Assembly: GCA_963681505.1 (NCBI GenBank)
Contig: OY811993.1
Location: 124,001-188,000 of the forward strand
Origin: Eunapius fragilis
Lineage: Eukaryota; Porifera; Demospongiae; Spongillida; Spongillidae
Length of the DNA: 64,000 nucleotides
Direction: 5' to 3'
In this document: one piece after another, positions 12,213-61,507 of the stretch
Layout of the letters: every line of letters begins with the position of its first letter
Numbering within the stretch: the first letter of the stretch is position 1
The notes under the pieces: generated by a model
Told to the model about the DNA's origin: nothing
Database searches by the model: none
What the model saw: only the letters and a program-made list of their open reading frames with translations
Translations under genes and position numbers: made by a program

Positions 12213-14546
12213 TTAACCCTTCACCTGCGATGGGCACATTTTTGTGCCCGTTATTAGCTCTTGCGCTATGCGGAGGGCACATTTATGTGATGAGTGGGAC
12301 ACGTGTCCGGTAAACATGCACTACGCGCGAACGGTACAGTATTTGCAGGTGTCGTTAGGCATACTAGCTAAGCATTACGTATGTTATTACATACAACTCT
12401 TTTATCGGGGCAATACACGAAAAAGCAAACAAAAAAACATTGCCTTCCGACACTGAATTTCTCCACCAGTTGAAGTAATTTTAGTGATGATGGCTTTGAT
12501 AGCTATGTTGAGGAAGAGAACGAGGGTTGTGAGCTTATTCGTAGATATTATGTTTGCTTACACCGGATGTGGGCGTCGTAATCAGTTGTCAGGCTTCAGC
12601 TGATGAAACTGCAGCCATGGAGTATCAAGAGGATATGGTAACGGAATACAAGTCTGTGGAGGCAGAGGAATAATTATGTGGACCATAGAACTCAGCAAGC
12701 ACCCCAAGTTCACTGTACCTCACCACAAGCTTGCTGACCCCTTACACCACAAGCCTCCTATTGCTCCCTTACACCAGTGCACGTTGACCCCATGCACGTC
12801 AAGCCTATTGCTCCCTTACACAACAAGCTTACTGCTCCCTTACACAACAAGCTTACTGCTCCCTTACACAACAAGCTGACTGCTCCCTTACACGACAAGT
12901 CTCCTGCCTCCTTACACAACAAGCCTACAGCTCCCTCTCCAGCTCCCATACACAACAAGCCTACTGCTCCCTTACACAACAAGCTTACTGCTCCCTTACA
13001 CGACAAGTCTCATGCTCCCATACACAACAAGCCTACAGCTCCCTTACAAGACAAGCCTCCAGCTCCCTTACACAACAAGCCTACTGCTCCCATACAGCTC
13101 CCTTACACAACAAGCCTCCTGCTCCCATACACGACAAGCCTACTGCTCCGTTACACGACACGCTTACTGCTCCCATACACAACAAGCCTCCTGCTCCCAT
13201 ACAAGACAAGCCTCCAGCTCCCTTAAACAACAAGCCTACTGCTCCCATACGACAAGCCTACTGCTCCCTTACAAGATAAACTTACTGCTCCTTACACAAA
13301 AAGCCTACTGCTCCCATACAAGACAAGCCTACTGCTCCCTTACACGACAAGCCTACTGCTTCCAAATAAGACAAGCCTACTGCTCCCTTACACGACAAGC
13401 TTACTGCTCCCATACACGACAAGTCTCCTGCCCCTTACATAACAAGCTTACTGCTCCCTTACACAACAAGCTTACTGCTCCCTTACACAACAAGCCTACT
13501 GCTCCCATACAAGACAAGCCTACTGCTCCCTTACACAACAAGCCTACAGCTCCCTTACACGACATGCCTACTGCTCCCTTACAAGACAAGCCTACTGCTC
13601 CCTTACACAACAAGCCTCCTGCTACCTTACATAACAAGCCTACTGCTCCCATACAATACAAGCCTACAGCTCCCTTATACCACATGCCTTCTGCCCCCTT
13701 ACACGCCAAGCGTACAGCTCCCTTATACCGCATGCCTTCTGCCCCCTTACACGCCAAGCCTACTGCTCCCATACACCACATGCCTGCTGCTCCCTTACAC
13801 GACAAGCCTACTGCTCCCTTACACCACATGCCTGCTGCTCCCTTACAAGACAAGCCTACTGCTCCCTTACAAGACAAGCCTACTGCTCCCTTACACCACA
13901 TGCCTGCTGCTCCCTTACAAGACAAGCCTACTGCTCCCTTACACCACTTGCCTGCTGCTCCCTTACAAGACAAGCCTACTGCTCCCTTACACCATGCCTG
14001 CTGCTCATAAAACAAGCCTACTGTTCCCTTACAACACATGCCTGCTAACCCAACAATGCTGACTCCTTACGCCATGTTTCATATCGCTTCCTCTTACCTC
14101 TATCTGTAAATCAAAGGAGCTTCACCTCAGAGTTGCTACCCAATTTCACTGAGCAGCTGGCAGGGCAAGCGTATTGTGCCAGGCGGCACAACAAGGTATC
14201 TAAGCAATACATAACAGTAGATGCATGCCCATACTTTTAAAACGTAAGCTGACAACTTACATGTACCAAACGAGGAGTTCAGAACGGTAGTGTAGATTGT
14301 CCATTTTAAATGACGCACACTCGAAGATAGACGAAGAATAAGCACTACCTGCCGTCAGCCCAAATCACTCAAAAACGATAGAACAGACACTTTTTGACAC
14401 CCATTGTGAAAATAAAGGCCATCGGGCGCGTAGTAACCTAGAAAAACTAGCAAGTGTTCTAGTGCTCCATTTTTAAAATTTTGAATGAAAATCCTTCCGC
14501 ATAACGTGATGCTAATGAATATTAATTAGCACAGGTGAAGGGTTAA
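12213..14546. mobile_element. piggyBac-type non-autonomous element (12,217-14,542) with TTAA duplication
   Basis: TTAA at 12,213-12,216 and 14,543-14,546 brackets a 2,326-bp insert whose ends are inverted: CCCTTCACCTGCG on the left and, read inward from the right, CCCTTCACCTGTG. TTAA target duplication with CCC...GGG ends is the hallmark of the piggyBac superfamily. The insertion is proved internally: the paralogous unit at about 16,290-16,320 reads straight through (TCATTGGTTTTTAATAAGTG) with a single TTAA, and the copy near 11,510 is likewise uninterrupted. No piggyBac transposase frame is visible; most of the interior is a 24-bp minisatellite. It must have been moved by a transposase encoded elsewhere. 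Confidence 0.88.
12690..14020. repeat. 24-bp minisatellite inside the piggyBac-type element, about 55 units
   Basis: Unit roughly CCTACTGCTCCCTTACACAA plus CAAG, repeated with drift (acaag/gacaag/ccacatg variants). Because 24 is a multiple of 3 and the unit lacks stops, long frames persist: plus-strand octapeptides TAPLHNKP/TAPLHDKP and LLPYTTSL, and minus-strand octapeptide CKGAVGLL (up to 332 codons). These start inside the array and have no flanking gene structure, so I do not call them genes. Variants cluster (hhMPAAP types towards the right end), indicating local amplification. Confidence 0.9.
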
Positions 14547-31065: not shown

Positions 31066-31109
31066 CATTGGCGACGAGGTAAACACTAACTTTTTTTTTT
31101 GCTGCAGAC

Positions 31110-34100
31110 ATGGCTTTTCACGGAGCGATCGGGCAATTCGACCGAGACGTGGACGAATGGGATTCATACTGCGAGCGTTTTCGGCTCTACGCAACGGCAA
31201 ATGACATCACCGCCGCTGAAAAACTTCGAGCAGTGTTTCTCAGTGTATGCGGAGCCCCCACCTATGAACTGATCCGCAGTCTCGTTGCTCCAAACAAGCC
31301 TACCGACAAAACGCTAGAGGAGCTAACTAAACTTGTGAAAGATCACCTAACTCCCAGACCCTCGAGCATCGTCCAAAGGTTCCATTTCAACGCGCGCGTC
31401 CAGAACGAGAACGAATCCGTGTCCCAATATGTTGCTGAGCTCAGGAAGTTGGCCGAAACCTGCGAGTTTGATGCATCGCTAGAAAATATGTTGCGAGATC
31501 GACTTGTTTGTGGGCTGCGTGACCCGAAGACCCAGCGTCGATTGTTAGCAGAGTCGCAGCTCACCTTTGGCAAAGCATTTGAGTTAGCTCAAGCAGCTGA
31601 GCTAGCAGAGAAGAGCGTCAAAGACTTGCAAGGTCAAGCACAAAATGATTCTGCGCAAGCATTCAAACTGGAACTGGCTAAACGCAAACGAAGCCAATCG
31701 GCAGTCTGTTCTCACTGTGGTGGAAAGCACCAATCCACCAAATGCCGACTCAGGGATGCCGAATGCTATTCGTGCGGTAAGCCAGGGCACATCGCCAAGG
31801 TCTGTCGCAGCAGTAGGGTTTCACGACAACGCTCTCGCTCACCAATCCGTAAACCCCAGCCTGAAGAAGTTACTGCAACGGAGGGTAGTAACAAGCAAGA
31901 AGTCTATACGCTTTTCCACTTCAGGGACAAGCTGGTTGAACCCCTCAACATAACTGTGATCGCCAATGGCATTCGTTTGCCAATGCAAATTGACACCGGT
32001 GCGGCAGTGTCAGTCATCAGCGAAATAACATATTACCGCCTTTGGTCTACTATAAAGAGACCGCCTCTACAAAACACGTCAGTGCAGCTGCGTACCTATT
32101 CAGGAGAAAAACTCCCTGTGCGTGGTCAGGTGCAGGTTCAAGTTAGCTACAGAGGCCAGGAAGCACGTTTACGTTTGGTGGTGGTTGCAGGCAAGGGTCC
32201 AACATTGATGGGGAGGGACTGGCTGAAGAGTCTGGATGTCCAGTGGCAGAGCAGTATCGGTGTTCATCATATGAGCGGCAGTTCTGTTCCAAGTGGTCTC
32301 AACGCGGTGTTGGGCAGACATGTCGACCTGTTCAAAGATGAACTCGGTTTGATTAAGGGTGTCAAAGCCACTTTCAGTGTAGACAAGACCGCCATTCCCC
32401 GTTTTTTCAGAGCCAGATCGGTGCCCTTGGCCCTTCGAGACAAGGTTGAAGCTGAACTAGACAGATTGGTGAAAGCAGGAATACTGCGTCCGGTTCGGTT
32501 CTCGGATTGGGCAGCACCCATTGTTCCGGTGGTTAAAAAAGATGGCAGAATTCGCATTTGCGGCGACTACAAGCTCACCGCTAATCGTGCTACCTTTACA
32601 GATCCGTATCCCATCCCCCGCATCGATGACCTTTTAGCATCAACTGCTAGGGCCAAATTATTTTCCAAACTAGACTTAGCCAATGCCTACCTCCAACTGG
32701 AACTGGATGAGGACTCCAAGAAGTATGTCACCATCTCTACTCACAAAGGCTTGTTTCAATACAACCGCCTACCGTTCGGGGTCTCCTCCGCACCATCTTT
32801 GTTCCAGCGCACTATGGAAGGCATTGTGGGGAACATTCCAAACGTCCTCGTGTACTCAGACGACATTCTAGTGGCGGGATCATCAGAAGAAGAACACCTG
32901 CACACCCTGGAAGTGGTCCTATCGCGGCTGGAGGCCGCGGGGCTGAGGCTTAAGCTGCCAAAGTGTTTCTTCATGTTATCCAGCGTTGAGTACCTTGGGC
33001 ACAAAATCTCAGCGGAGGGAATTCACCCAACCGAAGAGAAGAAACGAGCAATCCTTGACGCCCCTCCTCCACAGAACTTACAACAGCTGAGGTCGTTTCT
33101 AGGATTGCTCAACTTCTATGGCAAATTCCTACCCAACCTAGCCAGCACCCTTGCTCCCTTGTATGATCTGCTGAAGAAAAACAGTCACTGGCACTGGGGA
33201 TGCACTCAGAGTGAAGCTTTCAGTAAAGCAAAGCAGCTACTCACATCGGCAAAAGTACTGACACCTTTTGATGCGAAGAAAAAGCTGTGTCTGTCTTGTG
33301 ATGCCTCACCTTACGGCATTGGTGCGGTTCTCTCCCATATGTTCGCCGATGGATCAGAGCGCCCCATAGCATACGCTTCCCGTACGCTTGCACCTGCAGA
33401 GAAGAAGTACTGCCAACTTGAGAAGGAGGGTTTGGCTGTCGTCTACGGTGTGAAGAAATTTCACCAGTATCTATTCGGCCAGGAGTTTGTCATCTTTTCA
33501 GACCACAAGCCATTACAGTACTTATTCAGTGAAAGTCGCCCCGTGCCCCCATTGGCGTCATCAAGGATCCAGAGATGGGCTCTTACCCTCAGTGCCTACA
33601 GCTACAAGATAGTGTTCAAGTCTGGGAAACAGCAGGCAAATGCTGATGCCCTCAGCAGACTGCCGCTACAGACTACAATGGGCGACATTCCCATCCCGGA
33701 AGACACAGTGTTGATGCTTCAGGCCCTGGACAGGAGTGACGGTGCAGTATCAGTGAAACACATTCGCGAATGGACAAGCAAGGACCCAATCCTTTCGTTA
33801 GTGAGAAGAGCAGTGAGACTGGGAGATTGGAGTGTTGTACCAGACAGCCCCGAGACGTCCCCGTTCAGGAGGAGGGACAACGAACTCAGCTTACAGGACG
33901 ACTGTGTGCTGTGGGGCAACAGAGTGGTGGTACCCCAAGCTGGAAGAGAGGTCGTAACAGGCATTCTTCACGAGGGTCACCCCGGAGCCTCCCGTATGAA
34001 GTCTCTAGCTAGAGGTATGGTCTGGTGGCCAGGCATGGATAGCGACCTAGATGCGAAAGTAAAGCAATGCCAACAGTGTCAGGCGAACAGGAAAGCTCCC

Positions 34101-35330
34101 CCTGTAGCTCCGCTGCACCCGTGGGAATGGCCGACGCGGCCCTGGTCACGACTTCATGTCGACTTTGCTGGTCCCTTCCAAGGGAAGATGTTCATCATAC
34201 TGGTGGATGCCCACTCAAAGTGGCTGGAGGTCGGCATCACTCCTTCCACCTCCTCTACCAATGCCATCAGTTTCCTGCGGTCAACATTCGCAACTCACGG
34301 CCTCCCAGAACTCCTGGTTTCTGACAACGGCAGCGCGTTCACAAGCCAAGAGTTTAAGACGTTCGTCTCTCGCAACGGTTTCAGGCACACTCGTTGCGCA
34401 GCCTACCACCCGTCCAGCAATGGCCTTGCAGAGCGAGCCGTGCAAACGCTCAAAGAGGCTCTGAAGAAAACCAGTGGAGACATAGCTACCAGACTGGCCC
34501 GTTTCCTATTTCAGTACCGGAATACACCCCACACAACGACGGGTATTTCCCCAGCTGAATTGTTGCTAGGACGCAAACCACGTACCCTTCTGGATCTGTT
34601 ACACCCGGGAAACTCACCCACTGAACCTCAGAGCACAGAAGTTCCTCAGGACGTATATGCAAGGGTGGCCAAGAATCAACAAAGACAGAAAGCGTCACAC
34701 GACAAAAGGGCTAAGCAACGACTCTTTCATGTGGGGCAAAGTGTCTACGTCAAAAACTTTCAAGGACCCCCCACATGGCTCCCGGGAGTGGTCACTGCTA
34801 CACGGGCCCCGCTAACCTTCGAGGTCAACGTAGGGGATGGTAAAACAGTGCGCAGACACGTTGACCACATCCGTTCTCGCTACGAGGGGGCAACTCACTT
34901 GAAATCGAGCATGCCAACAGGTCCAAGTCCTGCAGTCAGCAATACAACAGAATCGGAAGCGCCCAGAAGTCAAAGAGGGGAAGGAGCACCCACCCAGTCG
35001 GGAACGCCCCCTCGGGACATTCCAAGTAGCCCCGCCCCCTCGAGTGGGCGTGGTGAGTTTGGGGTCGCAAACACAGATGGAGAGCTACCCATTGAAGAGC
35101 CGGCCGAAGGCACGGAACGTCAGGGAGTGGAGCCATTACAGTTGGCGCACCCAAACGTTCAGGACCTACCAGCCCCATGTGGAGGCAGGTCAGAACCAAC
35201 AGAGCAGGCGACAGCCCAGATAGCCGAGTCGCAACAAGAGGTCAGGCGATCACGCCGCGCACGAGCACCGCCGGACCGCTTGGGATGGAAGCTCTCTCCA
35301 AGGAGGGAGAAGTGTGGTAATCTGACCTAA
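31110..35330 (+). CDS. Ty3/gypsy Gag-Pol polyprotein, intact, single frame
   Basis: 1,406 codons with no break; the first ATG lies 44 bp after the 5' LTR. Approximate residue order: gag domain 10-180; two zinc knuckles 200-231 (CSHCGGKHQSTKC, then CYSCGKPGHIAKVC); aspartic protease (IDTGAAVSVI, about 295, and LMGRDWL); reverse transcriptase with FSKLDLANAYLQLELD and catalytic YSDD (about 581); RNase H with SCDASPYGIGAVL (about 729); integrase zinc-binding site (H near 957, CQQC near 987) and the D-D-E triad in HVDFAG, SDNGSAF and NGLAERA (about 1017, 1070, 1107). Integrase is followed by a GPPTWLPGVV module and a Pro/Ser-rich tail. No envelope gene. Gag and Pol are fused without the usual frameshift, and the stop lies 18 bp inside the 3' LTR. 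All catalytic residues I can check are present, so the copy may be competent. Confidence 0.95.
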   Translation: MAFHGAIGQFDRDVDEWDSYCERFRLYATANDITAAEKLRAVFLSVCGAPTYELIRSLVAPNKPTDKTLEELTKLVKDHLTPRPSSIVQRFHFNARVQNENESVSQYVAELRKLAETCEFDASLENMLRDRLVCGLRDPKTQRRLLAESQLTFGKAFELAQAAELAEKSVKDLQGQAQNDSAQAFKLELAKRKRSQSAVCSHCGGKHQSTKCRLRDAECYSCGKPGHIAKVCRSSRVSRQRSRSPIRKPQPEEVTATEGSNKQEVYTLFHFRDKLVEPLNITVIANGIRLPMQIDTGAAVSVISEITYYRLWSTIKRPPLQNTSVQLRTYSGEKLPVRGQVQVQVSYRGQEARLRLVVVAGKGPTLMGRDWLKSLDVQWQSSIGVHHMSGSSVPSGLNAVLGRHVDLFKDELGLIKGVKATFSVDKTAIPRFFRARSVPLALRDKVEAELDRLVKAGILRPVRFSDWAAPIVPVVKKDGRIRICGDYKLTANRATFTDPYPIPRIDDLLASTARAKLFSKLDLANAYLQLELDEDSKKYVTISTHKGLFQYNRLPFGVSSAPSLFQRTMEGIVGNIPNVLVYSDDILVAGSSEEEHLHTLEVVLSRLEAAGLRLKLPKCFFMLSSVEYLGHKISAEGIHPTEEKKRAILDAPPPQNLQQLRSFLGLLNFYGKFLPNLASTLAPLYDLLKKNSHWHWGCTQSEAFSKAKQLLTSAKVLTPFDAKKKLCLSCDASPYGIGAVLSHMFADGSERPIAYASRTLAPAEKKYCQLEKEGLAVVYGVKKFHQYLFGQEFVIFSDHKPLQYLFSESRPVPPLASSRIQRWALTLSAYSYKIVFKSGKQQANADALSRLPLQTTMGDIPIPEDTVLMLQALDRSDGAVSVKHIREWTSKDPILSLVRRAVRLGDWSVVPDSPETSPFRRRDNELSLQDDCVLWGNRVVVPQAGREVVTGILHEGHPGASRMKSLARGMVWWPGMDSDLDAKVKQCQQCQANRKAPPVAPLHPWEWPTRPWSRLHVDFAGPFQGKMFIILVDAHSKWLEVGITPSTSSTNAISFLRSTFATHGLPELLVSDNGSAFTSQEFKTFVSRNGFRHTRCAAYHPSSNGLAERAVQTLKEALKKTSGDIATRLARFLFQYRNTPHTTTGISPAELLLGRKPRTLLDLLHPGNSPTEPQSTEVPQDVYARVAKNQQRQKASHDKRAKQRLFHVGQSVYVKNFQGPPTWLPGVVTATRAPLTFEVNVGDGKTVRRHVDHIRSRYEGATHLKSSMPTGPSPAVSNTTESEAPRSQRGEGAPTQSGTPPRDIPSSPAPSSGRGEFGVANTDGELPIEEPAEGTERQGVEPLQLAHPNVQDLPAPCGGRSEPTEQATAQIAESQQEVRRSRRARAPPDRLGWKLSPRREKCGNLT
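35300..35312 (+). promoter_or_regulatory. Polypurine tract of Ty3/gypsy element
   Basis: AAGGAGGGAGAAG lies immediately before the 3' LTR, where plus-strand DNA synthesis is primed. It is also coding, inside the end of pol. Confidence 0.85.
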
Positions 35331-36652: not shown

Positions 36653-39422
36653 CAGTGCTCAAAATAGCGGTCGGACATCGGTCAATTTCCAATCAATTTG
36701 CGCGTATGACCGCGCAAATTGAACTAAAGCCGGTCACTTGGACCGACCATCCATTTCATTGTTATTGTTTATAAAATCATAGCGATTAGCTATCGTAGCA
36801 GTAACGTTATTCATGATACACGTAGCAATGATAACATAATGGTTGTTGCAGCTGTTAGTAAATACTATTAATTTACCGCTGTAAATAAAAAAATTATTGT
36901 AAAATGGACGAAGAGAGTTTGGTGCCCGATGCAAAGAAGAGGAAAGTGACGGTTAACACATTCAAGAAGTGGAAGACAGAGATGGACAAAGAGCATCAAA
37001 CGATTTCATGGCTTGAATGTGACTCCGAAATGGTAGGTACGAACAGGATAGTGAACAAACTTCGTTGCGTAGTGTGTGCAAAATACAAGGAGCGAATCTG
37101 TTGTAGACGGAATTACAGCGATCGTTGGGTTGTTGGTGCGGAGTCGGTGCGTAACAGCAACATTCGAGATCATGCGGTTTCCGATCAGCATATTCATGCC
37201 ATGAATTTGCTGAAGCGGGAACAGGGCAAAGTACCAAGTTGCTCGCACGCGCCAATAGCTCAAATGCTCAGCGCGATTCCTCAACTAGAAAAGGAGCAGA
37301 TAAGGCTAAAATTCAACATTGCTTACTTTTTAGCTAAAGAAAAATTGTCTTTTGCAAAATTTCTGAAGCTCTGTGAGTTGGAGGCTCATCATGGAGTTTC
37401 CATAGGTAATGCATACACCAATGATATCGCTTGTAGCACCTTCACGCACTACATTGCAGAGTCACAACGCCAGCAAGTTAAGGAAGCAATATTACAGGCT
37501 AAGTTCTTTTCACTGTTGATGGATGGGTCCACTGATAAAGGGAATGTAGATGATGAGATGTTCATGGTGGTTTGGTGTGATACCAATGGAGAGGATGAGC
37601 TGATTCACACTAGAATGACCTACTTACGTGTTGGTACACCGTCTACTGTCACTGCTGCAGGTCTCTTTGAAGAACTCAGCAAAACACTTGCACAACTAGG
37701 AATACCAAACATAGATGCTGAGAAATGCAGCAGATTGGTTGGCATAGGTACTGATGGAGCTTCATGTAATATTGCCCGAAATGGTTTGAAAGGGTGTGTG
37801 GAAGAAAAATTGGAGTGGGTATTCTGGATGTGGTGTCTGGCTCATCGTTTGGAATTGGCAGTGAAGGATGCGTTGAAAGGTACTACATTTGATGTTGTTG
37901 ATGACATGCTCCTCAGACTCTACTACATTTATGAGAAGTCTCCCAAGAAATGTAGAGAACTTGAGGAGGTCATCACTGACCTTAAAGGCTGCATCACATT
38001 TGATGAATCAGGGATCAGGCCTGTAAGGGCCAGTGGCTCCAGGTGGATTAGCCATAAGTTGAATGCCATGAAGCGTGTCTTGTCGAAGTACGGAGCATAC
38101 ACTAGCCACATTATAGCCCTCTCTGAGGATCATGCATTGAAGAGTGCAGATCGTGCAAAACTTCAAGGATATTGCAAAAAGTGGTCAGATGCAAAGTATA
38201 TTTTGGGGTGTGCAGTCTTCACTGACCTTCTTACACCAGCTTCAATTTTTTCAAAACAAATGCAGTTAGATGAATTGGATATCTTGACAGCCCTCTCTAA
38301 CTTGCTACATACAGTCAAAGAAGTTGAGAAGTTGAGTTTGATGCCTTTGCCCCAGTGGCCAGCATATTCCACCACATTGAAGAAAGTGATTGATGAAAAT
38401 GGGGCAAAGGTATATCAAGGCCAGGAACTGAAGAGGTTCCATCAGGCTGAGGCATTCTACATGAACCACTATGAGGAGTATTGTAAAAATCTCACTGAGT
38501 GTCTACGTTCCAGAATGGCCTGGTCTGACACAGAACTGATTCGAGACATTATCCATGTCTTAGCTACGCAAGGATGGGAAAAGATGGTTAGGGAAAAGAC
38601 ACCTCTGGACAGTGTAGACAGACTTGGAGAAAGTTTTGCTGTTGCACTTAAGGGAGCTCAGGCAGATTTAAGCAAGATCAAAGCAGAGTTTGAAATCCTT
38701 GTGAGTTATGCAGTGCAGTTTATTTCACTCTCCACCTTGGACTATCGAGCTGTTTGGTGGCGAATCTTCCATGCACCTAGTGCTGGTGAATGGTCCAATG
38801 CACTAGTTCTCATTGAACTTCTTTTTTCATTGCCTTCATCTAACGGCAAACTAGAACGTGCCTTCTCCCAGATGAAAGTGATTAAGACAGACAAAAGAAG
38901 TGTGCTTTCTAATGAGTCACTTGATGACCTCCTCATGGTGAGCATCAATGGTCCACCCCTCAAAGAATTCTGCCCAGATGCTGCTATTGATCTGTGGTGG
39001 AAGGATAAGCTGCGCAGACCACATCAGCAAGGAAGGAAAGCCTATGCATCTAGAGAAAAATCTACTGAAGGAGACACTGCTGAAGTAGAGGGTGTCACTG
39101 TAGAGGAAATGGACATGCTTACTAACTGGGACGACTGGATGGCTCCTTTACCCTCTGATATTCATGCTGACAGTGACTGATGTAGTGAATGTACCTCATT
39201 GATTATGTATCTACATGACATATATCTAGCACTCAGTCTCTAAATTTATGCATCTAATCTATATCTAGCACTCAGTCCATTTGATGTAATTAAATTTACA
39301 CACTCCTACAAACATACATGCATACATAGAAGAATGTCCGACCAAATCTGACAATGGCAGACCAAATCTATTTTTAGTCTGCCAAATGTCCGATCAAAGT
39401 TTAGACCTTATTTTGAGCACTG
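36653..39422 (+). mobile_element. Complete hAT element with 5-bp target duplication
   Basis: Termini CAGTGCTCAAAATA are inverted and perfect over 14 bp at both ends (36,653-36,666 and 39,409-39,422). CACTC directly flanks both sides (36,648-36,652; 39,423-39,427). Subterminal TCCGA/GTCCGAC motifs recur in both orientations. Most hAT elements make 8-bp duplications; a 5-bp one fits the group Repbase calls hAT5. The left end abuts the last satellite monomer. Confidence 0.88.
36904..39180 (+). CDS. hAT-superfamily transposase, intact
   Basis: 758 codons, no intron. Residues about 50-105 hold a Cys/His zinc-binding region (LRCVVCAKYKERICC ... HAVSDQHIHAM) of the BED/TTF type used for binding element ends. 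The RNase H-like core shows the first acidic residue in SLLMDGSTDKG (about 208), the second in GIGTDGASCN (about 282) and the hAT-typical WCLAHRLELAVKDA (about 314). The C-terminus has the dimerisation block SSNGKLERAFSQMKVIKT, then LSNESLDDLLM, with the final Glu. The protein resembles the ZNF862/KIAA1586-like group of hAT-derived proteins. It would cut and paste the element via a hairpin intermediate in the nucleus. It is the only frame between the terminal repeats and looks functional. Confidence 0.92.
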   Translation: MDEESLVPDAKKRKVTVNTFKKWKTEMDKEHQTISWLECDSEMVGTNRIVNKLRCVVCAKYKERICCRRNYSDRWVVGAESVRNSNIRDHAVSDQHIHAMNLLKREQGKVPSCSHAPIAQMLSAIPQLEKEQIRLKFNIAYFLAKEKLSFAKFLKLCELEAHHGVSIGNAYTNDIACSTFTHYIAESQRQQVKEAILQAKFFSLLMDGSTDKGNVDDEMFMVVWCDTNGEDELIHTRMTYLRVGTPSTVTAAGLFEELSKTLAQLGIPNIDAEKCSRLVGIGTDGASCNIARNGLKGCVEEKLEWVFWMWCLAHRLELAVKDALKGTTFDVVDDMLLRLYYIYEKSPKKCRELEEVITDLKGCITFDESGIRPVRASGSRWISHKLNAMKRVLSKYGAYTSHIIALSEDHALKSADRAKLQGYCKKWSDAKYILGCAVFTDLLTPASIFSKQMQLDELDILTALSNLLHTVKEVEKLSLMPLPQWPAYSTTLKKVIDENGAKVYQGQELKRFHQAEAFYMNHYEEYCKNLTECLRSRMAWSDTELIRDIIHVLATQGWEKMVREKTPLDSVDRLGESFAVALKGAQADLSKIKAEFEILVSYAVQFISLSTLDYRAVWWRIFHAPSAGEWSNALVLIELLFSLPSSNGKLERAFSQMKVIKTDKRSVLSNESLDDLLMVSINGPPLKEFCPDAAIDLWWKDKLRRPHQQGRKAYASREKSTEGDTAEVEGVTVEEMDMLTNWDDWMAPLPSDIHADSD

Positions 39423-45021: not shown

Positions 45022-47041
45022 AAGGACATCCTTCAGTATAAACCATACACCAAACCAACAAACTCACACCAGTACATACACAACTCATCTAACCACTCTG
45101 CAGCCACAAAACAATCAATCATATTCGCCAAAGCACTTCGTCACATCACAAATTCATCAGACCCCTGTAGAAGCCCAAGTAAACACACTCAAAATACACT
45201 TCAGCTACAATGCTAAGACCATTAACCGCATCTTCAATAAGGCACTTCACCATCTTCTGATCATCACCTTCCAACAGCTATAAACTATCCTCAAAACCAC
45301 ATTCGATCAAAGGGAGACCACCCTTACTACGACACCTTAAAACACACTGGGACCTCTCCGCAAACCCAGCATTCCAGACCATTTACAGCAACAAACTAGT
45401 CATATGTCATCCAAACACCACCAACATCGAAAAGGAAATTACCAGGGCAGCACTCCCAGGAGATAAACACCTCAACAACATCCCACTGTATACAGAATCC
45501 CCAGAATGATCAACCCCTGTGGCCACACGCAATGCGGCTGTTGCCTGAAACTCTGGTGCAGAAACACCATAGCAGGGACAGCCTCTTACACCAAAGTACG
45601 TAATACGGAGAAACTCTCATGCGCATCACAAAACCTGATCTACAATTCTGGAAGCCACGGATAGAGATGGCTGTCACTTTTGAAAAAGCCATGTATGTGA
45701 GCAGCCTTTAGGCCAACACCCCCTGGGATGGAGGTGTAGAGGTAGCCATCAGTTTCATGAGAAAGTTTAACAACAAAGTACCATTCAGGATCCTTGAGGA
45801 AGTCACATTAATCAATAAAAAGAAAGTCCCCGTGGAATTTGTACTGAAACACAGCGAATTTAACATCAAAGGTATCTCAAACAGACAAAACACGGTACAG
45901 CCATGGACACCAGCATTTTTACAGAAGCTATACAACATGAAGTGAATTATACAGAAAGAAAATGTGAAACAGAATGGAAAATGTGAAACAGAATGGATCA
46001 TCAAAATGAAAAATGATGTGGTTAGTGCCCTGGGTTCAACCCTACACCGGATCCCTTATACCTGTTAGTTCCTGCTCATACTTCATCTGCGCCTATTGCT
46101 TCCCTCAGTTCTTTTTCTTCTATTAAGCGGTTGCACAAGTGCGCCGCGCTTGCGCATTATCATTAAGTAGCATTTGTGTGCGTGCTCGAGCATCATCACC
46201 ACCCAAGTTCATGCCATCCATCCCCTTTCTCCTTCAACTTCATCCCTTCCAACACTACTACCCTCCGCCACTGTAACAGTGCACGCCATCCCTCAGTAAC
46301 CCTCACTATAGCGCCTTCTTCCTTTTCCCCTCACACGACGTCACGCTAATTAGTGCCCACCTTTTCTCCACCCGTGGTGCTTGCATTTCTCTCGACCGTC
46401 TTTATAGGGGACTTCTGCATAGGCATATTTCCGTGTCACGGCTGAAAAAAACTTGACATACTGATACGGCCGCCGATGGCCTTTGTCAAAGCACTATTTT
46501 ATTTCCACGCATGCGTGGGAAAACGGGTGTGCGTTAATTAGAATACGTTACGGAACCGTCACCCGACCAAACGCCAAGGGCGGAGACAAGGAGGGGGCAG
46601 GGGCCCCCCCCCCAGATTATTTGCACTTGAGTTATTAAAATTTCTGAAGTCGTTAATAATCAATTCACGGCTGTTTGGCCTCATGCATATTGCGGCTAAA
46701 TAGATATTTGCGGAATATCTTATCACTAGCTTCGCAACTATCATAGCAACCGAATAACAACTTTGTCGCCCACTTTTAAGGGCATCTGACACTACTTTAA
46801 AACATAACATTCTGCACAACTCACTCACTACCGAAGCTAGCTGCACGTATACGCATTTAAGAATTGCTAATACGTTGCTTGTGCGCACGTGATAAACAAA
46901 CGTGGTTTTAGAGGATTCGTCGTACCGCTATCAAAGTGATTTGTTTTGGAAGTAACCTGCAGTTTTCCCGAGTATACAATTAATACCTGCCTATACAGCA
47001 ATCGTATTATAGTAATTCTGTGAAGGTTTGGTGAACAGAGG

Positions 47042-47460
47042 CAGGGGCGGATACAGGGTTTTCCAAAAGGGGGGGTTGAGACCCGCGATACGAAATGCGG
47101 GGGGGGGGGGGGGGGGGGGGGGTGCTGTCCGCTTTAGACCCGACACGAAAAGCGGGGGGGGGGGGGGGGGGCTGTCCGCTTTAGACCCGACACGAAAAGC
47201 GGGGGGAGGGGGGGTGCTGCCCGCTTCAGGCCCGATACGAAAAGCGGGGGGGGGGGGGGGGGGGGTGCTGTCCATTTAAGGCCCGATACGGAAAGCGGAG
47301 GGGGGGAGGGGGAGGGGGTGCTGTTCAGCGCTTCAGGCCCGATACAAAAAGCGAGGAAGGGGGAGGGGCTGTTTAGCAGAAGAGGGGGCGTTACCATATA
47401 TGAAAGGGGGGGTTGCAACCCCCAAACCCCCCCCCCCCCCCCCCCCTGGATCCGCCTCTG
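47042..47460. mobile_element. G-rich MITE nested upstream of the RAG-like gene
   Basis: Termini CAGGGGCGGATACAGG (left) and, inverted, CAGAGGCGGATCCAGG (right); AGAGG flanks both sides (47,037-47,041; 47,461-47,465). The interior is a 45-65-bp minisatellite (TGCTGTCCGCTTTAGACCCG, ACACGAAAAGCGGGGG) with poly-G runs. The same internal repeat occurs inverted at 51,480-51,620 in the right end of the host transposon, so the two are related. No coding capacity. Confidence 0.8.
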
Positions 47461-47566
47461 AGAGGGTTTTTTTCCTCGCCCGTTGTGCATTTGCAAAGAC
47501 GTGCAATCGTACGTCAGAAAGTCGGGTTTCTGCACTTCCTATTGTTTCAGAGTAAAAATTACAAGT

Positions 47567-50500
47567 ATGGAACAACATCAAGAGTATCTGAACAGGTTAT
47601 GTCGAGTTTGTGGACGATATTCTGGATCTCAACGCAACAGAGAGCCAGTGTACAAGTGTTCAGAATATTCATCTGAGCTCAGCAGGGTATTTGAGAACAA
47701 CATTGCCAAGGACCTGGATACTGTCCATCCATCAAATTTTTGCAAGCCATGCCATATTGTTGTACATACATACATGAAAGCCTTGAATGAAGGAAAGGTC
47801 TACAAGCACTTAACAGTATTGTTCAGTGGTTGGAGACCACACTTGGAGGACAGGTGCAGTACTTGTGAGCATGTGAAATCACTTCAATTGGGTGGAAGGC
47901 CAAAGAGGAAAGCTGGAACTGGAAGACCATCAAACAATGATATCAATACTGTTATCTGCCACCTGGAGTGTATTGCACCTTATCCACTTGTTCCATACAC
48001 TTCAATTATGCCCACAGCATTGGATAAACAGTTATCAGTGAATGCAGAATGTCCATTATGCCTAATGCTTCTTAACAGTCCAGTAGAACTAAATAACTGT
48101 GGTGCAGTAGTATGCTTCCAGTGTTATTGCTTGTGGTTGGAAACCTCTGGAACACTTTCATGTCCTTGCTGTTATGAACAACCTATAAGTGTCTCTATGG
48201 TACAGCCAGCAATCAACTTTGTACAGTATGCTCTAAGAAAAATAAGGGTGATTTGTATGAATTGTGCAAGACCATTGGAGCTTGGTCATTATGAACCCCA
48301 TTTGAATAGTTGCTGTAGTTATTTGCCCATTGAAAGTGCTATTGAAGGAATTCTTCTCCAGCCAGAAAGTGCACCACTATCAAGTATAGAGTCTGCTTTG
48401 CAAGCAAATTTAGTTAGGCGTTCCCTTTCTATGAGCCCTGATAAGGATGTGATGGTAGTTAAATCTGTAGGAAAGGTATGTAAATTTTGTGTATCTTGTT
48501 TTACACCTCATTTTCTGCTTACATGTATATAGCCACTTGTACTTACAAAGCTGACTACACCATCTATTCGGTCAAGTATTGCATCCGCCAAAACTGTGAA
48601 AAGAAGAGTTCAGTACTTAGCCAAAGTACAAAGATATGTCAGTGGATGTGATACCACTGCTCAACTTTCACAGGAAATAAGATCTTCAACTGTTGAGGAG
48701 CGTTCCAGGATTTTAGATGAATTGACATCGCAGAGTGGATGCAGGGTCTCTGTTTCAACAGAGGAATCACTAGCAATGAAGGCTAACCTTATTATTCCCT
48801 GGAACAAGATTAGAGTGATGAGAAGGTACATGATTGTGCATTGAGCTGAATAACATCGTTTATCTATTATAGATGGTTAAAAGCATGGGGTATTCAACTT
48901 GTCATTGAGCAGATAATGCGACAAAGAGCAAGTGCTCTTATTGGAACAAACATGAGTGCCGAGATGATACCATTACTATTCAAACATAAGGGTGGAGCTG
49001 ATGAAATTAAACCAGCCCCTATAGCATACATACCTCACTTGTGGGCTAGAATACAGACTCTATTAAAACAGAATGATGTCACAGGGTGAGTGATATGAAC
49101 ACTACTGCATTGTAATCCATACTGCCTCAACTGAGGGTGGATCGTCCAACTTGGCACAATGGTGTAATTCCTGCTGATGAACTTTGGGTCAAAATAGGTG
49201 GAGATAAAGGTGGAAATACCTTTAAATTTTGTTTTCAGCTTCTGAATGTTGCTACATCTAATTCTGTTGAGAATACATGTGTTGTAGCAATATATTCTGG
49301 CCAGGACTCTTTTGTGAATTTGAGGATCTGTTTAGAACAATACGCTCAGCAATTAGCAGACATTGAAGCAGCAGGTTGGAGGTGAGACAATGCATATTAC
49401 ACTTTGTTTTTCACAAGAAATTAATCACTTCAGAGGGAACAAAATACGTTTTTTTCTATGTGGTGATTATGAATTTCTTTGTGAAATAGAAGGAATATCT
49501 GGTGCAAGTGGTTAGTAAATGTTTTATTCAATGTATTGGTATGTTGTATACATTTTAATACCCAGGCTGCCATTTTTGCTTGTGGTGTTTTATGACACAT
49601 GATGAGATCATTTTGCCACCAAATCTTGAACATACAATACAACTACGAACAATTGCATCACTGTGTTATGATCATAGCAGATTTATGAATGCTGGGGGAG
49701 ATTTAAAGTTAGCTAAGACATTCAATAACGCTATTCGGCAACCTCTCTTTCTTTCCATACCTCTGTCTCAGGTACACCATTTCAAATATATTTACCTGCA
49801 TGGTGATGCAATATTATAATGCTTAGGTATGTCCCCCTGGACTTCATATAACAATGGGTATTTTTTTGAGATTGTTCGTTCTGCTGGAAGAGGATTGTCA
49901 TAAGCTGGATTGCAGAGCTGTTGTTTTGGATGGAGTGTCTGTTATCTCCTATGATAACTACTGTGCAGCATTAGTTACTAAAAGGGAACTAATGGATGAA
50001 ATGGTATCACTGAAGGATACAATCCAATGCTTTGAACAGCATGTGGTATACATGCTATCGTATGGTGAAGAAGAAATGGATGCAGCTGTAGGCTTATGAA
50101 GCTTGAAATTGAAGAGAAAAAACAAAGGCTTAATGTTGTGGTAAGATTTTAGTTATTAATGCAGAATATATTTGATTGTGAGACGTTATAAACTTAGGGT
50201 GAAGAGATTGACAAACTTGAAGTAACTTTGAAAGTGGATTTCAAAAAGGATGGACCTTCGTGAAGGCTCTAGACAATGCACTAGCCTCTTTTCATGTAAA
50301 GAGGCAGGCATACTACAGTGGAACATTTGTGGGTAATCATGTTCACAGAGCATTAAAGGTAACACTGTATTTTGACCACAACATATCAAACATGATTATA
50401 CCTTCTAGGCGTACAACGTTGCAATACTTTGAAATTCTATTGTATCAACTGCAGAAGACTACCCACCATTGTGTAGTGAAGCAAGAGCTATTAGCCAGAA

Positions 50501-50960
50501 GTACTTGTCACTTTTTAGCATATTTCAGCAGAAGTACCATGACATATATGACAAGAACATTGTCTCTGATGAAGAAATAGAGCAATTGGGTAAGTGTAAG
50601 TTACGAGTCAGTATTGTGAGTGAAACAGTACACTTTCATATTTGTTTTGTAGAAGATAGCATTGGAGCATTTATGGCTTTTTATCGCAAAAACTTTGCTA
50701 CTCATTCAGTGCTGCCAAAGATGCACTTCTTAGAAGTCCATGTTGTACCTTATCTGAAACAATGGCACATGGGCTTTGGATTTTTGGGTGAGCAGGGAGT
50801 TGAAAGTATCCACCATTACTTCAATGACCTTGAAAGGACGTACTGTGGAGTAAGAGATCCTGCTCAAAAACTGCAGTTGATGTTGAAAGAGCACACTCTA
50901 CATACTGCTCCATCGAATGTTGCTGCAAGGCCAGAGATAAAGCGACGCAAACGAAGTTAA
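47567..50960 (+). pseudogene. RAG1-N-terminal-like / DDE transposase gene (N-RAG-TP type), 10 exons
   Basis: Exons by GT-AG and frame: 47,567-48,475; 48,533-48,825; 48,873-49,085; 49,136-49,381; 49,434-49,510; 49,566-49,771; 49,827-50,140; 50,198-50,358; 50,409-50,589; 50,653-50,960. Introns are 47-63 bp. Exon 1 follows the order of the RAG1 N-terminus: CRVCG ... DLDTVHPSNFCKPCH, WRPHLEDRCSTCEH (about residue 88), a basic segment, a RING (CPLCLMLLNSPVELNNC ... CPCC, residues 161-203) and a finger CMNCARPLELGHYEPHLNSC. The expected RING histidine is Ala (NCGAVVC). Later exons give a DDE transposase: D in KIGGDKGGNTFK, D in FLCGDYEFL, a CHFCLWC zinc site, E in GEQGVESIHHYF. It is not the RAG1 core. 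Defects: frame loss near 50,093 and 50,254 and an in-frame TGA near 50,430. An upstream in-frame start at 47,483 is possible, but the ATG at 47,567 begins the conserved part. Confidence 0.8.
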
Positions 50961-51469
50961 TGTATGGTGTAGCCGGCACGTTCGTATCAACCGCGCTTCT
51001 AGTACCTGATGTTTACGCTAATGTAATATGAAGAGAAAAAGCCCTCTGAATACATGAATCCTGCCATCAGTATCCAAATTGATTGTATTTTTAAAATTCG
51101 TAGTTGTCTTATTTGACGAAACTGCACGCTTCGTGATTAGTGGTTTGTTAAGAGCATAAATAACTGTTGCAATGCAACTGCCAAAAAAAAAAAAAAAAAG
51201 ATATCACTATGGCCTGAGATTGTATGCATGCTGGAACCTAAAAAACCCAGGGCTTCTATTCAAAATGCTGTAACAGGGTGAAGATTTGTCGGTAACTAGG
51301 TCTGTTGTTACGGGGCATTTCAATATTTCTTATAACGCGGCGCGCGCGTAGTAAATGTCCAATGTTTCTACGGAGCTTAACAGCCGTGAATTGTAAAGCG
51401 CGCACTATTCAATAGATCCATAGATATTAGAATATCTATGATACAAGGTACCTCCCCCTCTTCTGCTAA

Positions 51470-51610
51470 GCTGCCCCCCCCCCCCCCCTCCGCCTTTCGT
51501 ATTGTGCCTAAAGCGGACAGCAGCACCCCCCCCCCCCCCCCCACTGTCCCGCTTTTCGTATCGGGCCTAAAACGGACAGCACCCCCCCCCCCCCGCTTTT
51601 TGTATCGCGA
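51470..51610. repeat. C-rich minisatellite in right end of the N-RAG-like element
   Basis: Two to three inverted-orientation copies of the unit seen in the 47.1 kb MITE (CGCTTTTCGTATCGGGCCTA, then AAACGGACAGCACC) separated by poly-C. Just inside, at 51,419-51,440, is a palindrome with perfect 10-bp arms (CATAGATATT) and a 2-bp centre. Confidence 0.8.
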
Positions 51611-51672
51611 GTCTAAACCCCCAACGACAATTAGCCCCCTCCCCCACCCTTAAAAACTTGTCTACACCCTTG

Positions 51673-58272: not shown

Positions 58273-61200
58273 ATGTTTCAAATGCATGGACCTACCAAAA
58301 GAAAGCTTTGCCCCCATTGCGGTGTTCGTCTTAGTCGTTCTGCATACTACTTGCATAGGCGACAGTTCTACTCTTTTGAGACAGGACAGTGGCAGAGAAA
58401 GTCAGCAGCTCCTGATCAGCAGCAGCAGGCCAATGATCGACAGGCAAATGAATGTGAAATTGCAGATAATGTCATAATGGATTCAAGAAACGAATATTCA
58501 TCGTCATCTGATCTGTCTTCGTCAGAGTCAGATACATTTGGTTCAGATATTGTACAGGTAAGAGATCATAATGTAATACATACTGCCATAGATTCCATGC
58601 CCACACTGACAACGGGCGTGACATGACACGCCCCTTCCGCCCCCACAGACAAGAATCGAACGTTTTTTTTTAAATGTGCGTATCTCCGTAACCATGCATA
58701 AGCGCTAGCACTAGGACTAGAGTCACTAGACTGATAACGTTATTCGAAAAAACAAAGGTTTTTCAATATTGTTTTAGTATATGAGATACGCTTTTTTTTT
58801 CCATGGGGGCGGAGGTGGGGTGGGACTTTAATAGATGCGTCGTAATAATTGTTTACATGTACATGTATGATTATGAGTGTTACACTTCAAAAACCACATA
58901 AACCTCAATGTAGGATTTAGTGGAAGTGGAAGAATCAAACGACATTCAGAGTGACATGGAAACCACGGAAACAGAGGATAGAAGTTCTGAGGAGAGCACA
59001 AATCCCACACAAAATTCTGCAGCAACTGGTAACCCCAAATCATTGCATGTTCTACGGTACATATTGCTATTGTTCTGATATGGAAGAGCATATGTAAGGT
59101 TGCAGACAATGCAGTGAAAGATTTATTGAAGTTTTTGAATGTTCTGATTAATCTTCTGGTGAAAGATAGCCCGTTCAGTGTTCCTTTAACCCTAGCTTCT
59201 GCATTGAAGACATTGGGAATATATGATAACTTTACACAGTTTTGTGTATGCAGCAAATGTCATTCCCTCTACAACATAGCTGATTGCATAGAAAATGTTG
59301 GAGGATCTTCGAGTTCCAAGAAATGCAGATTTGTTCAGTTTCCAAACCATTGCCAAAAAAGATTTCGCACTCCGTGTGGCCAACTTTTAATGAAAGAAGT
59401 TAAGCAGAGTTCTGGGAAAACAACATTAGTGCCAAACAAAGTATTCTGCTATAGAAGTGTTATACAGTCATTGGCTGATAGGTTAAGAATGTCAAAGTTT
59501 TTAGATCTATTAAACTACGGACATGAGCATAGAAGCGCTGATGGTGTTTTAACAGACATATTTGATGGAAAACTATGGAAAGAATTTCAGTCAACATTTG
59601 GTGGTAACAAAAACAACCCTTCATTAGGCTTTATGCTCAATGTTGATTGGTTTAACCCGTTTAAGCATGGTAATTATTCGTTAGGAGCAATGTATTTTTC
59701 AATATTAAATTTACCAAGGGAGCTGAGATACAAGGAACAAAACACCATACAAGTAGGATTAATACCTGGTCCCAAAGAGCCAAAACTAACTTTAAATTCA
59801 TATCTAACACCTCTTATTCAAGAGCTTTCACAATTAGAAACAGGCGTCCAATTTTATTCACCAGATGCACTAGGGGGAAAGGTGATTGTTAAAGCTAGGT
59901 TGTTGGCAACTTCATGTGACATACCAGCATCTCGTAAAGTGTGTGGATTTGTGGGTCATTGCGCTATAAAAGCTTGCAATAAATGTCTAAAAGACTTTAA
60001 TAGAAAAGATGATAGAACAGATTACAGTGGTTTTGATGCAGATTCGTGGCCTAAACGCACTAATCAAGAGCACAGATTGCGTGCACAAGAATACCTTAAA
60101 TGCACAAACAAAGTAGAAAGACAACGGATTGAGAGCTTGCATGGTCTTAGATACTCTGTTCTGCTAGATCTACCTTACTTGGACATTATCAAGCATTGTG
60201 CAATCGACCCCATGCATAACTTATTTTTGGGAACGAGTAAACACGTAATGGAAGTGTGGCAAAAAGAAAATCTTATAACAGCAAGTGATCTAGTCATCAT
60301 TCAAGAAAGAGTAAATTCCATGAACCCACCACCAGATATAGGCAGAATACCCTCAAAAATATCTTCTAATTTTAACGATTTCACTGCTGATGAGTGGAAA
60401 AATTGGACAATAATATACTCCATATATGCTTTACACGATACATTGCCAGCATCAGAATTAAAAATGTGGGAACTTTTTGTAAAAGCATGTTCAATAGTTT
60501 GTTGCAGAGTTATTACTGAAGAGGATGTCAAACTAGTACACAGGCTATTGTTGGAATTTAACAACTGCTTTGAACGTCTTCATGGACCGGACTATTGTAC
60601 AATAAATATGCATTTGCATTGCCACCTTGCTGAAACAATACTAAATTTTGGTCCTATCTACTCATTTTGGTGCTTTCCCTATGAGCGATACAACGGCATA
60701 CTAGGGTCATATTCAACAAACAATCATGTGATTAACGTGCAAGTGATGAGAAAATTTTTACTCCAGCAATCCCTTGAAAAATGTCTATTTGATCATGATT
60801 CATCATTACAAGACATGCCAAAGGAATGGATCCTATCTGTTATTGGTTCTAAACTGATGAAAAGCACAGGATCACTGAAATTACAGATTTTCGATGCAAC
60901 TTCATACGAAACCATACTAGCACAGAGACACGGACATGGAGATATAAGAGTATCATACTCAGCACATCAAAAGGTCAAACTATGTGGAAAAATATATGAA
61001 GGTGCATTCACAGATTCACAATTTGAAGAAATGAAACAAATGTATAAATTGCTGTACCCAAATGCAACTACAATGCAAGTGTCTCGGTTATACATAAGAT
61101 GTTCAGATGTAGAAACATACAGTACAAATGAACACTACAGCTCTTCATCATCAATGAGCAAGAGATCCCATTGTGCATATGGATTGAATACTTCCGTTTT

Positions 61201-61507
61201 TCCTAACAAAAAACAATTATGTTCCATCGAATGCTACATAAAAAACTCAGTTATTAACTTACATTCCAGTAAATCAGAACACATTCTGGCATGTGTTAAG
61301 TGGTTTCAGATTCTTCCTGGAGAACAACAAAAGAGCCTTGGTGATACTGTTGATCTATGGAGCACATTCCAAACCAATCAACCAACCTACATCTCTCTCT
61401 ACCAGATCCAATGCAAAGCAGCTACAGTGAAAACAGTTGCCATAATAGATGGCATAGAACAAAATGTAATCTTATCTGCTCCAGTACACAGAATGGTGAA
61501 CCATTAA
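58273..61507 (+). CDS. CACTA (EnSpm)-superfamily transposase, 933 aa, 3 exons
   Basis: Exons 58,273-58,557, 58,914-59,028 and 59,106-61,507; donors GTAAGA and GTAACC, acceptors TGTAG and TTGCAG, phases 0 and 1 consistent. Exon 1 starts with a zinc-finger-like KRKLCPHCGVRLSRSAYYLH; exon 2 is acidic. Exon 3 holds the transposase: FCVCSKCHSLYN, the first catalytic Asp in MLNVDWFNPFKHG, the CDIPASRKVCGF block with CNKCLKDFNRKDD, the superfamily hallmark AIDPMHNLFLGTSKHVMEVW, and the Glu in FPYERYNGILGSYSTNNH. An in-frame ATG at 58,246 is an alternative start. It cuts and pastes the element from CACT(A/G) ends with 3-bp duplications; I could not find those ends. No disabling change seen. Confidence 0.85.

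Follow-up and report, generated by a model that had tools for sequence, protein, structure and literature searches.

The locus studied here lies in a window of 64,000 nucleotides from the sponge Eunapius fragilis (the whole stretch of DNA that was analyzed), and it raises the question of what kind of element joins a RAG1-like N-terminus to a DDE transposase and how the ends of that element relate to those of RAG. The initial annotation described a single transposon that terminates in CAAGGGYGKAGACAAG and is flanked by a 5-bp duplication, AACGC, of the same size as for Transib and RAG transposition. Seven sister copies (L039–L045; about 91–98% identity in shared blocks, several internally deleted) locate the ends of the gene's element elsewhere. 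The right limit of homology to the window falls at 51388–51389 in all seven, and the left limit falls at 46658–46666 in six; the seventh, L039, is truncated and matches from 46740. At these limits the window carries the termini CACGGCTGTT...AACAGCCGTG (46666–51388), flanked by AATT. Because the seven sister copies stop matching there, we bound the element at these CACGG ends, and its true limits are 46666 and 51388 rather than the CAAGGG ends (Table 1). The expectation that other copies would share the CAAGGG ends failed: with up to two mismatches allowed, these ends are absent from the boundaries of all seven close copies, and the one loose match, in L043, lies away from the limits. A unique, exact 4-bp target-site duplication flanks 11 of the 17 elements for which both ends were found, or 12 of 18 if L057 is counted (CTCT on both sides); of the other six, four have no exact duplication, one has a 3-bp match only, and one lies in poly-C. 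L041 and L043 show two candidate ends each, and the end at the homology limit was used in this count.

The CAAGGGYGKAGACAAG ends and the AACGC duplication are nonetheless genuine, and they mark an outer, non-autonomous repeat. The end pattern has 259 exact matches in the genome (130 forward and 129 reverse in 218.9 Mb on 24 contigs), compared with none for a reversed-pattern control. Short copies with paired CAAGGG ends occur (L001, 177 bp; L006, 169 bp), and the duplication flanking the repeat is 5 bp in the window, 5 bp in L006, and 4 bp in L001. The outer repeat occupies 46575–46665 and 51393–51672. When the flanks of the gene's element were joined by a single AATT and searched genome-wide (209 candidates), 39 of 40 scored matches crossed the junction and so represent the repeat without the gene; the fortieth is the right half of the window copy. 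The best match, 98% over 115 of 115 nt, is located 2.5 kb past the window. The empty site of the outer repeat, with a single AACGC, is intact over 30 of 30 nt at two places in L048. The gene's element therefore jumped into an unrelated 371-bp repeat, with paralogous empty sites for both insertions. A single transposon bounded by CAAGGGYGKAGACAAG and flanked by a 5-bp duplication would explain why such ends exist and why AACGC is a true duplication, yet it has a negligible chance of being correct against the missing ends in the close sisters, the repeat found without the gene, and the short copies that carry such ends as a pair; we reject these termini for the gene's element on the sister-copy limits and the gene-free repeat. 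The apparent link to RAG through a 5-bp duplication was a false lead: that duplication belongs to the surrounding repeat, and the gene's element has the 4 bp seen in Chapaev. The outer repeat itself sits inside another repeat (GACCAAACGCGGTGGTAGGGCC), in which a CAAGGG end is found at the identical point in L003. The G-rich element inserted toward the 5' end of the gene's element has CAGRGGCGGATMCAGGG ends and an empty site in L039 and L041.

Table 1. Positions of the features discussed, numbered along the window
Feature	Position	Strand	Remarks
Outer non-autonomous repeat, host of the Chapaev insertion	46575..51672		371 bp without insert; CAAGGGYGKAGACAAG ends; 5-bp TSD AACGC
Chapaev element	46666..51388	+	4723 bp, one nested insert included; limits from 7 sister copies, ends, TSD, and empty site
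TSD AATT, left	46662..46665		4 bp
5' terminal inverted repeat CACGGCTGTT	46666..46675	+	10 bp, perfect
G-rich element nested in 5' part, not part of Chapaev	47042..47460		apparent 5-bp TSD AGAGG
Exon 1	47567..48475	+	RAG1-like N-terminus: Chapa-type Cys/His region, WxPH-C-C (WRPH..C..C) block, RING, zinc finger; 303 aa, stop-free
Pfam PF12560 RAG1_imp_bd match	47678..47875	+	residues 38–103
RING	48050..48172	+	residues 162–202
Exon 2	48533..48825	+	
Exon 3	48873..49085	+	
Exon 4	49136..49381	+	predicted first catalytic Asp, GGDKGG, codon 49203–49205; PF06918 DUF1280 region
Exon 5	49434..49510	+	predicted second catalytic Asp, CGDYEF, codon 49465–49467
Exon 6	49566..49771	+	C(2)C motif, CLWC
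Exon 7 to in-frame stop	49827..50099	+	LH motif PPGLH at 49833; frame lost near 3' end
Exons 8–9	50199..50591	+	further frame change and in-frame TGA; exon limits approximate
Last exon	50651..50960	+	H(4)H motif HFLEVH at 50724; Glu motif GEQGVES 50787–50807, Glu codon 50802
TGGACATTTACT motif	51350..51361	-	positions 28–39 from 3' end; long-spacer, 23-RSS-like register
3' terminal inverted repeat (CACGGCTGTT read on - strand)	51379..51388	-	
TSD AATT, right	51389..51392		4 bp

Within these bounds, the exon model, which is the window spliced by its own GT/AG sites, places the D, D, and E motifs where the initial annotation had them (codons at 49203, 49465, and 50802). The hallmarks given for Chapaev in PMC4079192 are a 3- to 4-bp target-site duplication, 5'-CAC/GTG-3' ends, a DDE triad, and C(2)C, LH, and H(4)H motifs. 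The element has CAC...GTG inverted repeats (CACGGCTGTT at both ends, 10 bp and perfect), an AATT duplication, and all of the DDE, C(2)C, LH, and H(4)H motifs, catalysis being predicted from sequence; the Chapa domain and RING of Chapaev proteins are represented by proxy, through PF12560, RING matches below the cut-off, and a RAG1 profile match. In addition, PF06918 (DUF1280) matches the later part of the protein at 3.1e-15, above its cut-off; an NCBIfam search of the protein returned nothing useful. An open frame runs through exons 2–7 (738 aa) and ends at an in-frame stop, and three lesions disrupt the coding sequence, including two frame changes around and after that stop and one more in-frame TGA, such that the window copy is dead and unable to make the full protein. 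We assign a probability of roughly 0.9 to the reading of the locus as a dead cut-and-paste DNA transposon of the Chapaev superfamily that lies, with its 4-bp AATT duplication, in a 371-bp non-autonomous repeat. That several exons remain open could suggest a single-copy gene domesticated by the host; the two frame changes, the in-frame stop, and the many copies with target-site duplications make such a gene exceedingly improbable.

The N-terminal part of this Chapaev protein follows the order that was first noticed in exon 1, namely a Cys/His region, a WRPH..C..C block, a RING, and a second zinc finger. Exon 1 was combined with 12 related proteins into a profile, which aligns collinearly with residues 102–399 of RAG1 at 4.4e-28 (101 bits); the best non-RAG1 RING protein for the same profile is TRAF6, at 1.2e-9 (40 bits). 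PF12560 (RAG1_imp_bd) matches exon 1 at 2.7e-10, with 40.8 bits against a cut-off of 23.3, and RING models match it at best at 3e-4, below the Pfam cut-offs. We considered whether exon 1 might instead come from an ordinary RING protein that was joined to a transposase and has no RAG1 ancestry, given that the single window sequence places TRAF6 (3.3e-6) slightly above RAG1 (1.3e-5). The difference in profile bits between RAG1 and the best other RING, a profile match that begins upstream of the RING in a region specific to RAG1, and a PF12560 match above the cut-off leave this alternative with a very small probability, and it is rejected on the profile comparison. Our verdict that exon 1 is RAG1-like at the level of sequence, spanning the predicted N-terminal non-core domains of RAG1, is thus based on the profile and PF12560 rather than on the single sequence; the comparison with generic RING proteins that had been proposed for this exon favors RAG1 by profile and slightly favors TRAF6 by single sequence. 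The original description of the locus, as a transposon in which an N-terminus of RAG1 type is joined to a transposase of DDE type, agrees with the profile, the PF12560 match, and the DDE motifs. In the E. fragilis genome, PF12560 scores above its cut-off at 50 places compared with 0 of 14 control genomes, and exon 1 used as a query gives 143 matching stretches. Most named protein relatives are from Ephydatia muelleri, the best having 81% identity over 35% of the query; a homolog search with residues 1–303 only gave no match at E 1 among 864 candidates.

The relationship of the transposase core to RAG1 is a separate matter. Profiles of the core only (the DDE core, the catalytic block, and the segment after the zinc finger) gave no RAG1 match up to E 10, and the stretch of the RAG1 alignment that extends beyond the RING was not reproduced with that segment searched alone. 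Alignment of the core profile with the mouse RAG1 core using hhalign gave an E value of 0.0018 and a probability of 14.8% (range 11–15%), and a third, broader alignment gave 0.029 and 2%. Shuffled sequences scored as high as the real alignment in 0 of 60 cases for two alignments and in 1 of 60 for the broader one, and by eye the second Asp and the C2C block are in register with RAG1. These comparisons are suggestive of homology between the catalytic cores, but not proof of it. The label of the transposase in the initial annotation, non-RAG1, is provisional. In PMC4411706, Chapaev is placed within the Transib superfamily, from which the RAG1 core came, as one of its remote clades.

The DDE motifs and the RAG1-like exon together invite comparison with four known systems. 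Chapaev DNA transposons with a Chapa domain and a RING were reportedly described by Kapitonov and Jurka in 2007. As presented in PMC4411706, two Chapaev subgroups encode a Chapa domain followed by a RING, and the Chapa domain is equated with part of the RAG1 N-terminus; therefore, the join of a RAG1 N-terminus to a DDE transposase is of a known kind. The sponge elements resemble these Chapaevs in having a Chapa-like region and then a RING, a DDE core, CAC/GTG ends, a 3- to 4-bp target-site duplication, and C2C, LH, and H4H motifs, and they differ in their sponge host and in having sister families with a conserved second end motif whose spacing differs by 11 bp from end to end. Like RAG1 and the RAG-like elements (ProtoRAG/TransibSU), they have a collinear N-terminal Cys/His region, RING, and zinc finger, CAC ends, and, in sister families, asymmetric bipartite ends. 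Unlike RAG-like elements, which are described with a 5-bp target-site duplication (PMC7204232), they have a 4-bp one, and, judged from the exon layout, the element is taken up by the transposase exons, with no space left for a RAG2-like partner gene. Transibs with 12/23-like ends, as characterized in PMC8355894, likewise combine a terminal CAC with a second motif at spacings approximately one helical turn apart; they differ from our elements, which have another family of transposase, a 4-bp target-site duplication, and TGGAMA in place of an A-rich nonamer. The N-RAG-TP element of Aplysia, for which the same paper repeats an earlier proposal that it was the source of the RAG1 N-terminus, is alike by its description there as a transposon coding for a sequence similar to that N-terminus (PMC8355894).

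The ends of the sister families have a bipartite organization. TGGAMA is found at both ends of these families: 6 bp separate it from the terminal repeat on the 5' side, compared with 17 (16–18) bp on the 3' side. A 12-mer, TGGAAACTTAGT, is shared by the ten copies of subfamily B (L046–L055); its first base is position 17 in the 5' end and position 28 in the 3' end. In recombination signal sequences (RSSs) the heptamer occupies positions 1–7 and the nonamer occupies positions 20–28 (12-RSS) or 31–39 (23-RSS). The subfamily B block covers the place of the nonamer of a 12-RSS at the 5' end and of a 23-RSS at the 3' end. The same two positions, 17 (5') and 28 (3'), hold a similar motif in L057, in which exon 1 is 31% identical to that of the window; the motif is also found at 17 in the 5' ends of L033, L034, and L036–L038 and at 28 in the 3' end of L058. 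The 5' end of L035 matches the motif only partially, and in L056 this place is deleted. The window's own family has the motif in its 3' end (Table 1), and no recognisable motif was found at position 17 in the seven of its copies for which the 5' end was found. When a motif trained on 5' ends from other families was run along four 3' ends (the window family, B, L057, and L058), its top-scoring place was position 28 in each; L057 and L058 are closely related. The margin over the next-best position is 8.1 versus 6.1 (position 19) for the window family and 11.6 versus 6.1 for B, and it is narrow, 5.6 versus 4.9, for both L057 and L058; among 2000 shuffles, the position-28 score was reached by 4, 0, 4, and 2 for the window family, B, L057, and L058, respectively.

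Genome-wide pattern searches extend the two spacings beyond these copies. The strict pattern CACGGYTGTT N{0,28} TGGAMAYTTA has 114 matches (control, 0), and among the first 100 of these, which were listed and counted by eye, 78 have a spacer of 6, 18 a spacer of 17, and four another length. A looser search with TGGAMA and gaps of 8–30 gives 235 matches compared with 6 in the control, and among the first 100 of these, which were listed, 71 have a spacer of 17, 20 of 16, two of 18, and seven another length. These searches require TGGAMA (TGGAMAYTTA for short ends), such that families that lost the motif and looser short ends are missed. Ends facing each other were paired from 47 of the 100 listed strict matches (contigs C1–C4; one was left out by a position filter, which makes the two lists span one common stretch) and the 100 listed looser-pattern matches, which together make 135 distinct ends. 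Among the matches listed, the 23 facing pairs comprise 21 short-long pairs, one long-long pair formed by different families, one pair of a short end and an end with a 21-bp spacer, and no short-short pair; the 21 short-long pairs are 18 of family C and three of family B and are not independent events. A long spacer of 21 bp is found in L031. The motif was seen at both ends in only three families (B, C, and E), and the 12/23-like layout holds for these sister families, the window family having the long end only. Many long-spacer ends among the matches listed also contain a third block, CATTGAA-like, at approximately positions 18–24, that is not found in short ends.

Both the 11-bp offset and the register of the motif in the sister families correspond to the 12/23 arrangement of the RSSs used in V(D)J recombination. 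This layout is possibly new for Chapaev: our search of 5.39 million open papers found no published second end motif of Chapaev with an 11-bp offset and no open paper that names Chapaev together with a nonamer. According to the relevant passage of a 2021 paper (PMC8355894), 12/23 asymmetry in transposition outside RAG is known only from some Transibs. We propose that Chapaevs with a RAG1-type N-terminus carry RSS-like ends, each with a CAC tip resembling the heptamer and a second motif, which lies exactly in the 12 register at one end and in the 23 register at the other, and that a 12/23-like pairing rule existed in sponge transposons, either inherited from an ancestor of Chapaev, Transib, and RAG or recurrent through the geometry of the synapse. 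The transposase would bind ends that start with CAC and cut the element out from a synapsis of one short-spacer and one long-spacer end, by analogy with the pairing of a 12-RSS and a 23-RSS by RAG, and the excised ends would be joined to the target with a 4-bp stagger. The sequences show the ends, the duplication, the empty sites, the domains, the catalytic motifs, and the end spacing of the sisters; in this scheme we infer the catalysis, what would bind the second motif, the rule of pairing, and a function, if any, of the RING. We are cautious about the proposal and put it somewhat below even odds. Close to an even chance goes to the layout being a relic, in which one ancestral end changed in length by 11 bp, all sister families inherited the change, and the spacing plays no role in pairing. 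The CATTGAA-like block is common to long spacers across families, so the long end is probably of one origin, and the window family has spread despite having no recognisable 5' motif; both observations fit a relic. They are balanced by the restriction of spacers to 16–18 bp in 93 of the 100 listed looser-pattern matches, by a motif at position 28 in families with about 31–45% exon 1 identity to the window, and by the excess of short-long over short-short facing pairs among the matches listed. The origins of the RAG1 N-terminus and of the 12/23 rule are open questions in the beginnings of adaptive immunity, and, if the pairing proposal is true, this sponge Chapaev clade would be a second, far more distant 12/23-like case, and one represented by many copies.

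Other parts of the window also contain long open frames and repeats. On the forward strand, an open frame of 1415 aa (31083–35330) resembles a retroelement polyprotein by eye, and two further frames of 763 and 824 aa (36889–39180 and 59033–61507, respectively) appear transposase-like by eye. A long tandem array at 12738–14066 is composed of units that code for short repeated peptides.
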